The notes under the pieces are model-generated. The model did no database searches. It was given only the letters and a program-made list of their open reading frames with translations, and was not told where the DNA came from. A DNA stretch of 64,000 nt from Solirubrobacter pauli (GTDB lineage Bacteria; Actinomycetota; Thermoleophilia; Solirubrobacterales; Solirubrobacteraceae). Shown here piece after piece: positions 4,734 through 61,809 of the stretch. The DNA lies in assembly GCF_003633755.1 (NCBI RefSeq), contig NZ_RBIL01000001.1, positions 1,039,426 to 1,103,425 of the forward strand, read 5' to 3'. Every line of letters begins with the position of its first letter. Position 1 is the first letter of the stretch. The position numbers and the translations under genes were made by a program.

Positions 4734-6083
4734 GTGACCACGCTTGCCTCTCCCCCGGAAACGCTCGACGTGCTCGACCCGTCCACGGGCGAGCCGATCG
4801 CCACCGTCGAGATCGGCGACGCCGACGCGGCCGTGCGGGCCGCCCGCGCCGCCGCTCCCGCCTGGGCGCGGACCGCGGCCGCCGAGCGCGCGGAGCGGTT
4901 GAAGGCCGGCGCGCGCCGGCTGCGCGAGCACGTGGACCAGCTCGCCGAGCTGCAGTCGCGTGAGGGCGGCAAGCCGCTCGCCGACTCGCGCGGGGGCATC
5001 GAGGCCGGCATCGGCGCGATCGAGCAGTACGCCGAGCTCGGCCCGCTGCACCGCGGCAAGGCGCTGCAGGGCGGCTGGAACGCGACGGACGTGATGGTCC
5101 ACGAGCCGCGCGGCGTGGTCGCGCTGCTCGTGCCGTGGAACGACCCGGTGGCGATCGCGTGCGGCCAGATCGCGGCCGCGCTCGTCGCCGGCAACGCGGT
5201 CGTGTTCAAGCCGTCGGAGAAGACGCCGCTGAGCGGCGCGCGGATCGTCGAGCTGCTGGACATCCCCGGCGGGGCCTTGCAGCTCCTGCAGGGCGACGCG
5301 CGCGTCGGGCGGCCGCTCGCCGCGCATCCGGACGTGGACCTGGTGATGCACACCGGGTCGGTGCAGACGGGGCGCGAGATCGCCGACGTGGTCGCGGGGC
5401 GGATGGGCAAGGCGCTGCTCGAGCTCGGCGGCAAGGACGCGCTGATCGTCGACGCGGACGTCGACCCCGCGTGGGCGGCCGAGCAGGCCGCGCTCGGCGC
5501 GTACGCGAACGCGGGGCAGATCTGCACGTCGGTCGAGCGCATCTACGTGCACGAGGCGGTCGCCGAGCCGTTCGTCGAGGCGCTCGCCCGCGCCGCCGAC
5601 GGCTGGACGATCGGGCCCCTGATCGACGCCCGCCAACGCGAGGTGGTGCACGCGCACGTGACCGACGCGGTCGAGCGCGGCGCGCGACTGGTGCGCGGCG
5701 GCGCGGTGCCCGACGGGCCCGGCTTCTTCTACCCGCCGACCGTGCTGGTCGGCGGGGACCGCGACGCGCCCGTGCTGCGCGAGGAGACGTTCGGACCGGT
5801 GGCGGCCGTGCAGGTCGTGACGTCGTTCGACGAGGCACTCGCGCTGGCCGACGACACCGAGTACGGGCTGGCGGCCACCGTCCTGACCAAGAACCCGGAG
5901 CACGCGCAGCGCGCGGTCCGTGAGCTCGCCGTCGGCACCGTGAAGATCAACGCGGTCTTCGGCGGCGCGCCCGGCGGCGCCGCCGAGCCGGCACGGCTGT
6001 CCGGCAGCGGGTTCGGCTACGGGCCCGAGCTGCTCGACGAGCTCACGCGCACGAAGGTCGTGCACATGGGCATCGCGCCTTAG
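4734..6083 (+). CDS. Aldehyde dehydrogenase family protein
   Basis: This 449-residue NAD(P)-dependent dehydrogenase oxidises an aldehyde to an acid. It has the cofactor-site segment VPWNDPVAIACGQIAAALVAGNAVVFKPSE, the general-base Glu in LLELGGKDALIV near residue 229 and the nucleophile Cys in GQICTSVERIY near residue 264. FGPVAAVQVV and a typical oligomerisation tail follow. It is a little shorter than the usual 480-500 residues because the N-terminus is trimmed. The substrate is not evident; the closest feel is to betaine or semialdehyde dehydrogenases. The stop codon TAG lies inside the left arm of repeat copy A. Confidence 0.92.
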   Translation: MTTLASPPETLDVLDPSTGEPIATVEIGDADAAVRAARAAAPAWARTAAAERAERLKAGARRLREHVDQLAELQSREGGKPLADSRGGIEAGIGAIEQYAELGPLHRGKALQGGWNATDVMVHEPRGVVALLVPWNDPVAIACGQIAAALVAGNAVVFKPSEKTPLSGARIVELLDIPGGALQLLQGDARVGRPLAAHPDVDLVMHTGSVQTGREIADVVAGRMGKALLELGGKDALIVDADVDPAWAAEQAALGAYANAGQICTSVERIYVHEAVAEPFVEALARAADGWTIGPLIDARQREVVHAHVTDAVERGARLVRGGAVPDGPGFFYPPTVLVGGDRDAPVLREETFGPVAAVQVVTSFDEALALADDTEYGLAATVLTKNPEHAQRAVRELAVGTVKINAVFGGAPGGAAEPARLSGSGFGYGPELLDELTRTKVVHMGIAP

Positions 6084-6245
6084 GGCTCGTCGAAGAAGTT
6101 CCGCCACGCCTGCTGCGGCACATCCGCGGCACCTCGCGCCACCCACTCGGCTCACGTGCTGGCGCACGCATCGCTCTCGCGTGCGGCCCGAGGCACTGGC
6201 GGCTGCACCACATCAGACGCACCGCCCATTCCTCGACGAACCCTA
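6081..6245 (+). repeat. Structured intergenic repeat, copy A
   Basis: This 165-base element matches copy B at 46328-46490. Two blocks are identical in both copies: 47 bases at 6112-6158 and 36 bases at 6179-6214. Between them lies a variable loop region that forms a hairpin in both (GCACGC with GCGTGC). The ends pair as a long imperfect stem: TAGGG (6081-6085) with CCCTA (6241-6245), and TCGTCGAAGAA (6087-6097) with TTCCTCGACGA (6229-6239), one mismatch. Inside the core, CGCCA pairs with TGGCG and CTCGG with CCGAG. It fills the gap between two convergent genes exactly; both stop codons lie in its arms. The family is unknown to me. Strand is given by alignment with copy B, not by transcription. 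Confidence 0.8.
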
Positions 6246-7118
6246 GGCCTTCACCTGGATCCGCCCGTCCTCCACCCGCACCGCGAGCACCGGCTGCGGG
6301 TAGGCGGACGGGCCGCGCTCCACCGAGCCGTCGTCGAGGCGGAACTCGCTGGCGTGCAGCGGGCAGACGACGCACTCGCCCTTGAGCTCGCCGTCGGCGA
6401 GGGAGCCGCCGCGGTGCGCGCAGCGGTCGGCGAGCGCGTGGACGGTGCCGTCGCGGCGGGCGAGCACGATCGGGCGGCCGTCGACCTCGACGCCACGCAG
6501 CTCGCCCTCGGGCAGGGCGGCGTCGTCGAGCACGTCGGTCCACGTCTCCGGGCCCGACTCGAACACGGTCTGGTCGACGCCGACACCCTTGGCGTAGGAC
6601 AGGTGGCCGCCGAGATGCCCACCGGCGCCGACCGCGCCCATGCCGGCGAGGCCGAGCGCCACGCCCCGGCCGTGGTGGCCGCCGCGGCGGGCGGCGAGCG
6701 AGGCCGTGAAGAGCCCGAGCGCGGCGACGTTGGCCAGCGCGTGCACCGCGCCCACGCGGCGCACCTCGTCGCTCGCGGGCGTCGTGTCGGCCCAGTCGTT
6801 GAGGCCGCTGGCCGCGGTCGGCAGCGAGGAGAGCAGCCCCGCGGCGATCAGCCGGCGCGCGGCGGGGCGTGAGGCCTCGCCGCCCACGAGGTCGAGCACC
6901 GTGGCCGACATCCAGGTCCCGATCGGCATCACGATCATCAGCGGGTGCGCGGCGTGGCCGAGCGGCACGCCGCTGAGCGCGTCCTTGAACGGGCCCTTCG
7001 GGATCGCGCCGCGGGCCCACTTGGCGACGGCTTCGGCGGGTCCGTCCAGGGCGGCCGCGGCACCGATGCGCTCGGCCAGGTGATGGAGGCGGGGTCGGGA
7101 CGCTTGGACGTTGCTCAT
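6243..7118 (-). CDS. DUF2231 membrane domain fused to Rieske [2Fe-2S] domain
   Basis: The protein has 291 residues. The N-terminal ~170 form a DUF2231-type membrane domain (HPLMIVMPIGTWMSATVLDLVGG, then three more hydrophobic stretches). The C-terminal ~100 are a Rieske domain with both cluster motifs, CAHRGG (Cys233, His235) and CPLH (Cys252, His255). Such fusions are predicted electron carriers at the membrane; the partner is unknown. The gene faces away from the ArsR operon at 7194 and shares the 75-base gap with its promoter. Its stop lies in the right arm of repeat copy A. Confidence 0.9.
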   Translation of the reverse strand: MSNVQASRPRLHHLAERIGAAAALDGPAEAVAKWARGAIPKGPFKDALSGVPLGHAAHPLMIVMPIGTWMSATVLDLVGGEASRPAARRLIAAGLLSSLPTAASGLNDWADTTPASDEVRRVGAVHALANVAALGLFTASLAARRGGHHGRGVALGLAGMGAVGAGGHLGGHLSYAKGVGVDQTVFESGPETWTDVLDDAALPEGELRGVEVDGRPIVLARRDGTVHALADRCAHRGGSLADGELKGECVVCPLHASEFRLDDGSVERGPSAYPQPVLAVRVEDGRIQVKA

Positions 7119-46327: not shown

Positions 46328-46490
46328 GGAGCACCCCGGGGAATACCGGCGCGCCCGCTGCGGCACATCCGCGGCACCTCGCGCCACCCACTCGGCTCAC
46401 GTGCCAGAGGCACGCCACGCTCGAGCGTGCGGCCCGAGGCACTGGCGGCTGCACCACATCGGGCGCACCGAACATTCCCCGGGGCACTCC
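46328..46490 (+). repeat. Structured intergenic repeat, copy B
   Basis: This 163-base copy matches copy A (6081-6245). The identical blocks are 46357-46403 and 46425-46460. The variable loop between them is CCAGAGGCACGCCACGCTCGA, hence again a GCACGC/GCGTGC hairpin. The ends pair perfectly with sequence unlike that of copy A: GGAG (46328-46331) with CTCC (46487-46490), and CCCCGGGGAAT (46334-46344) with ATTCCCCGGGG (46474-46484). An inner arm, CGGCGCGCCCG, pairs 10 of 11 with CGGGCGCACCG. Here it lies between divergent genes, 13 bases before the ArsC-like gene. Confidence 0.8.
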
Positions 46491-61423: not shown

Positions 61424-61428
61424 TGAAG

Positions 61429-61809
61429 TGGAGACGGCGGGAATTGAACCCGCGTCCGCAGTCGCGTCAAGCCGACGTCTACGAGCGTATCCGGTGATCT
61501 AGATCTCGCCCATCCCTAACTACACCGGCAAGGTTGGTCAGGGCCAGCCTGATCAAAAGTCCCCTTCATCGGCTCAGGCAAGCGTCTGAAGGGCAAGCCT
61601 ACTTATTACTCGGCGTGATCCCGTCGTAGGCCTCGGGCGCCAAGGCTCAATCTAGTTTCAGCTAGACGAGAGCGTACTCGTGGGCCTCATCGGCCACGAG
61701 AGCGGGATTAGAGTCCGCATTTGTGTTTGTGCTGGTTTTTAACGGGGCCTCCAGCACCCCGGCTCGCAACCGACCCCACGAACCGACCACGTCGAAGCCT
61801 GTCGTCCCC
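61429..61809 (-). ncRNA. ssrA: Transfer-messenger RNA
   Basis: This 381-base tmRNA rescues stalled ribosomes by adding a degradation tag. The 5' end GGGGACG pairs with CGTCTCC before the encoded CCA, giving the tRNA-like acceptor stem, and the T-arm reads GGTTCAATTCCCGCC. The 5' GACAGGCTTCGACG is typical. The tag frame reads ADSNPALVADEAHEYALV and then TAG; the resume codon is GCG. ADS is as in mycobacteria, but the end is ALV rather than ALAA. A strong terminator follows. Confidence 0.94.

Follow-up and report, generated by a model that had tools for sequence, protein, structure and literature searches.

Two copies of a nearly palindromic hairpin element are found in the 64,000-nucleotide stretch of the Solirubrobacter pauli genome analysed here, referred to as the window (contig NZ_RBIL01000001.1, positions 1,039,426 to 1,103,425). 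The first copy lies between two convergent genes, encoding an aldehyde dehydrogenase and a Rieske protein. As judged by comparison between genomes, both copies belong to a family of dispersed repeats that is mobile and whose folded structure is under selection. The features are the following:

6081-6245, minus strand: hairpin element copy 1, 165 nt, with 52 Watson-Crick and 14 G-U pairs; covariance-model match of 148-157 bits
46328-46490, minus strand: hairpin element copy 2, 163 nt, with 59 Watson-Crick and 12 G-U pairs; covariance-model match of 161-172 bits
6112-6159, minus strand: identical 48-base block of copy 1, inner stem and apical side, corresponding to 46357-46404 in copy 2
6179-6214, minus strand: identical 36-base block of copy 1, opposite inner stem, corresponding to 46425-46460 in copy 2
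6081-6083, plus strand: TAG stop codon of the aldehyde dehydrogenase gene (4770-6083), within the terminal arm of the element; from sequence, open reading frame and Pfam Aldedh; CTAG in the empty site of relatives
6243-6245, minus strand: TAG stop codon of the convergent Rieske/DUF2231 gene (6243-7118), within the other terminal arm; from sequence, open reading frame and Pfam Rieske and DUF2231

The initial annotation had located both copies correctly and had described terminal arms that differ between them yet pair inside each copy, which is indeed the case; its shared 36-base block was also accurate, while the other block is 48 bases long and not 47. It had, however, folded the plus strand, with a variable-loop hairpin parting the two blocks, and this strand turns out to be the weaker one (copy 1, -73.6 kcal/mol, z -3.0; copy 2, -98.4 kcal/mol, z -6.9). 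The minus strand folds far better (copy 1, -110.5 kcal/mol, z -7.7; copy 2, -136.3 kcal/mol, z -11.9; no shuffled sequence equals either), and forms in each copy one near-continuous rod of about 165 nt from end to end, with small internal loops. Because the reverse strand folds end to end and the plus strand only moderately, the minus strand is regarded as the structural one.

Searched with copy 1, the host genome yields four places, namely the two window copies, another full-length copy (C1:2527829) and a short one (C1:1268394). Two diverged copies (C2:1048403 and C1:826082), both folding as rods, come in addition from a broader model, so that the host carries three full-length, one shortened and two diverged copies. 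Six congeners contain from 2 to at least 40 BLAST-detectable copies each. The covariance-model tallies are 64 in genome G005, 21 in G003, 14 in G006 and 5 in G004; given the near-palindromic nature of the element, they may count some copies a second time on the other strand. In short versions, of about 90-115 nt (the host copy at C1:1268394, or L006, and loci L089, L094 and L091), the middle of the rod is missing and the hairpin is still closed; other palindromic repeats likewise have known shortened forms. In G005 (C1:345012-346115, L065), a stretch of about 0.94 kb is duplicated in tandem, with flanks 100% identical over 760 bp, and the two element copies that it holds are not identical. None of the few partial matches suggested a longer, autonomous version flanking a transposase gene, although no systematic search for one was made.

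Pairing, and not sequence, is what the ends conserve across the 71 copies of the genus alignment, as the initial annotation had suggested from two. Standard pairs are formed by 97.4% of the 4,037 alignment cells, and double changes occur in 38 of the 57 pairs, with 357 cells carrying one; none of 500 shuffles is as good and no slid register comes close. All 17 pairs of the terminal arm show double changes. Class-wide, 35 sequences are paired at 90.9% of cells versus 70.4% when shuffled, with double changes in 32 of 40 pairs (274 cells) and a covariation score of 0.596, versus 0.230 for shuffled and at most 0.148 for slid alignments. Even among nearest-neighbour copies, which are 87-95% identical, 67 pairs have changed on both sides and are still paired, and single-sided changes keep the pairing in 63 of 101 cases, versus 39% expected if they were random.

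The folded strand contains 639 G-U cells versus 8 A-C cells, and in 26 relatives taken individually it has 5-16 G-U pairs, versus 0-6 on the complement. Since each G-U pair becomes an A-C mismatch on the opposite strand, this excess points to selection on one folded strand, single and of fixed polarity, which in the window is the minus strand. Such an excess is hard to explain by recognition of double-stranded DNA alone, or by template-switch correction of one arm from the other, which would remove G-U pairs.

The locus orthologous to copy 1 lacks the element in genomes G001 and G002, where it reads GGCATCGCGCC-CTAG-GCCTTCACC, and the same flanks enclose copy 1 in the window (GCGCC-TTAG-element-CTAG-GCC). 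The intact CTAG of the empty site constitutes the overlapping TAG stop codons of the two convergent genes, and after insertion each gene has its own TAG inside an element arm. The third copy has an empty site in G003 (GTA-CTAG-GAC), and a chimeric query made of 25 junctions from two other species revealed contiguous empty sites in congeners for most of them. No copies of different species were found to have both flanks in common, except between two near-identical genomes. Taken together, these comparisons show that the family is mobile and that nearly every insertion site is lineage-specific. The clean junctions mostly show a TA-containing target; TA stands on both sides of copies 1 and 3 and several other junctions have no duplication, a distinction that is confounded because the element ends look like the target. 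In G004, near position 21050 of contig C20 (L213), a 50-nt remnant consisting of just the two terminal arms lies at a CTA/GTTAGC site; G006 has a full copy (L022) at this very site, and G001 and G003 are clearly empty there. Either one target has been used more than once, or an old insertion has since disappeared from the other genomes.

Relatives are found with model R1 in other genera of the same taxonomic family, and a second model, R2, matches over its full length in 49 of the 399 genomes that were sampled from this whole class of soil bacteria, belonging to 23 of 128 genera, with another lineage within the class reaching 29 matches per genome. Full-length relatives across the class measure about 174-180 nt, the length staying near 175 nt despite very different sequence. 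One distinct subfamily (L257, L259, L262, L264 and L265) has the ends TAGTGCCCCTTCCAGTAATGC and a CCAAG motif inserted near the middle of the 5' arm. In an exact pattern scan of 84,980 species genomes, all named matches are from Solirubrobacterales (Solirubrobacter taibaiensis, S. phytolaccae, S. deserti, Siliceabacter and metagenome-assembled genomes). A phylum-wide sample of 397 genomes contains one genome beyond the class with weak matches (2.5e-4), and since its 180-nt rod (L289) is similar at the ends to one class subfamily, the family may reach slightly beyond the class.

Plasmid, phage and viral collections gave no match, and no paper was found on such a repeat in Solirubrobacter, Conexibacter or Thermoleophilia; the family is apparently undescribed. 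The window copies match no Rfam family at gathering thresholds; a relaxed search returned nothing with copy 2, and what it gave for four related loci was a single chance match that fell outside the element. Membership of a known Rfam family was rejected on these curated and relaxed scores. The sole Rfam match of the window at gathering thresholds is a transfer-messenger RNA gene at 61426-61809 on the minus strand. The initial annotation had proposed either a family of structured RNAs or a mobile element recognised by its hairpin, unlike any known family and to be pursued by genome and covariance-model searches; the further copies in related genomes, the strong covariation, the empty sites and the lack of an Rfam match all bear this out, and they are the opposite of the sequence-level outcomes that it had named as refuting.

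The observations are best accounted for by one new ERIC/REP-like family of dispersed, non-coding, non-autonomous hairpin mobile elements of about 165-180 nt, probably mobilised via a folded single strand, a reading to which we assign a probability of roughly 0.6. The inner and apical conserved part would serve as the recognition module, while the basal arm, which covaries freely, would need only to pair. An enzyme encoded elsewhere would recognise the folded strand, whether exposed as single-stranded DNA in replication or copied into RNA, and would then insert it at TA or CTAG. New copies enter short TA-containing targets, often CTAG, which are mostly stop codons at gene 3' ends and especially the overlapping stops of convergent genes; as the element's own ends resupply stop codons, the neighbouring genes survive.

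Several points weigh against this reading. No partner enzyme was found in a search that covered RAYT and IS630 candidates. The target duplication is ambiguous, amounting at the cleanest junctions to 0-2 nt and thus to no more than TA. G-T pairs form in single-stranded DNA too, so the G-U excess does not prove RNA, and the compensated double changes could partly stem from template switching between the arms.

Genes were called from codon usage, with the window as training set, and the gene context was scored for the 78 copies with both neighbours called. Convergent genes enclose 36 of these copies (46%), versus 20 of 197 background pairs (10%), and 71 abut the 3' end of one or both neighbours, whose stop codon commonly falls within the terminal arm; copy 2, located between divergent genes, is an exception, and the same end context is seen in other genera. 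This strong bias, the very stable hairpins and the 67 double changes through which near-neighbour copies stay paired would also suit an RNA useful to the host at the 3' ends of messenger RNAs (mRNAs), be it a bidirectional barrier, an RNase III substrate or a module for mRNA stability, kept once it had inserted, in the way reported for ERIC and NEMIS (PMC2229807, PMC10969869). Such a role, which could coexist with mobility, is possible but doubtful. The folded strand is not tied to the adjacent sense strand, being sense to the upstream gene in 48 of the 78 copies and opposed to the downstream gene in 59; insertion sites are not conserved between species, and the 3' flanks, by inspection, have no U-run. 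Since the choice of strand is not simply that of the neighbouring mRNA, strand selection seems to be part of the element's own life cycle. Inspection of replication-strand bias gave no clear signal, copies being of mixed orientation within G005 contigs.

A more far-reaching, rather speculative version is a class-wide selfish element that would replicate either via a folded RNA copy, as a bacterial retroelement similar to short interspersed nuclear elements, or via a folded DNA strand read by an undescribed shape-reading recombinase, and that would target stop codons to spare its host.

The element could instead be a classical miniature inverted-repeat transposable element (MITE), that is, a deletion derivative of an IS630- or IS5-type sequence. 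A DDE transposase would then move it in double-stranded form, recognising the terminal inverted repeats and duplicating TA or YTAR, with the hairpin as a by-product. The TA/CTAG targets, the apparent duplication of TA in copies 1 and 3, and the attribution of a similar bacterial repeat, RUP, to IS630-Spn1 (PMC2229807) are in line with this origin, which we nevertheless consider unlikely. The IS630-type (DDE_3) transposase is present in none of the seven genus genomes, on which ground an IS630 partner was rejected, IS5-type enzymes lying outside that search. Moreover, the outermost arm is conserved in pairing only and not in sequence, a strand-specific G-U excess is not expected of a double-stranded substrate, and several junctions have no duplication.

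The covariation could also be mostly mutational, template switching at a quasi-palindrome copying one arm onto the other without structural selection. Many double changes are transversions without intermediates (A-U, C-G and G-C in one pair), and they are frequent even between near neighbours, as this process would produce. It would, however, convert G-U to Watson-Crick pairs and erase internal mismatches, whereas G-U pairs such as columns 45-143 and 48-140 persist in 70 of the 71 copies and the ratio of G-U to A-C cells is 639 to 8, which makes it quite improbable.

A REP/REPIN-like element mobilised by host-encoded RAYT (Y1 tyrosine) transposases is more improbable still. REPs are single-strand hairpin substrates, for which GT pairing and alternative complementary stems have been described (PMC3733652, PMC8266576), and RAYT-like Y1 transposase genes occur in six of the seven genus genomes, exactly the copy-rich ones, and not in G004. 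This partner, promising within the genus, was rejected on the evidence from other genera, where element-bearing genomes of seven lineages have no Y1 genes and two Y1-bearing genomes have no element, and on the weak copies in the RAYT-less G004. The RAYT loci, in addition, have no significant match to the element, which has no unpaired GTAG tag and is 4-5 times the length of a REP. Single-copy RAYT-like genes of four species (L132, L134, L135 and L136) lie between neighbours that look the same in each, as would be expected under vertical inheritance. Finally, a vertically inherited non-coding RNA gene that was merely duplicated would fit an ancient, structure-conserved family with a length near 175 nt class-wide, but is hardly credible given sites that differ in every species, patchy presence, up to dozens of copies per genome and many empty sites, which contradict it unless all are precise deletions.

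Bacterial genomes are shaped by small hairpin repeats, ERIC and REP among them, and for most of these the mode of movement is unproven. The present family is an unusually clean data set, with numerous sites both empty and filled, a strict signal for one strand, arms whose changes compensate each other, class-wide subfamilies and hosts without the usual suspect transposases, and it therefore becomes directly testable whether the mobile form is a single folded strand. It is also a structured family that spans the class and has no counterpart in Rfam, and its preference for the overlapping stops of convergent genes is striking.

Among known families, ERIC (127 bp) is likewise non-coding, of similar size and folded as a whole-length RNA stem-loop, with an intergenic or 3'-end location, TA termini and no known transposase (PMC2229807, PMC10969869). 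The element shares the single full-length hairpin of about 0.1-0.2 kb, the intergenic location and the TA termini, and differs from ERIC in its bacterial class, its length of 165-180 nt, its strong strand-specific G-U bias and its measured class-wide pair covariation; no blastn match was obtained in 5,426 Escherichia coli genomes, members of which carry ERIC. REP/REPIN sequences are also hairpin repeats with covarying stems and frequent G-T pairs, and their dispersal via a folded single strand has been proposed (PMC3733652, PMC8266576); unlike them, the element is much longer, has no RAYT link and no unpaired GTAG tag, its terminal TAG being paired. The broad features of MITEs are all present, in that the element is non-coding, occurs in multiple copies and is either present or absent at orthologous sites, and RUP (IS630-Spn1), Correia/NEMIS and other MITEs resemble the element in size (about 100-200 bp), TA target and stable RNA hairpins (PMC2229807), but its hosts have no IS630 transposase and its termini are not conserved in sequence. 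The Yersinia palindromic YPAL/RU-2 (about 168 bp) is nearly equal in length, palindromic and found at empty and filled sites (PMC2229807). YPAL termini have no TA and its duplications are 3-26 bp, whereas the element has TA-containing ends and duplications of at most 2 nt. Integron attC sites are imperfect hairpins recognised by structure rather than sequence, with one strand active. The element likewise forms an imperfect hairpin and would be similar in the other respects, and differs in that no cassette genes or integrase association were noticed, without a formal test. ERIC and YPAL are the closest in form, while REP and attC-type systems are the closest in the likely role of a folded single strand; the element belongs to none of these four whose defining features were tested.
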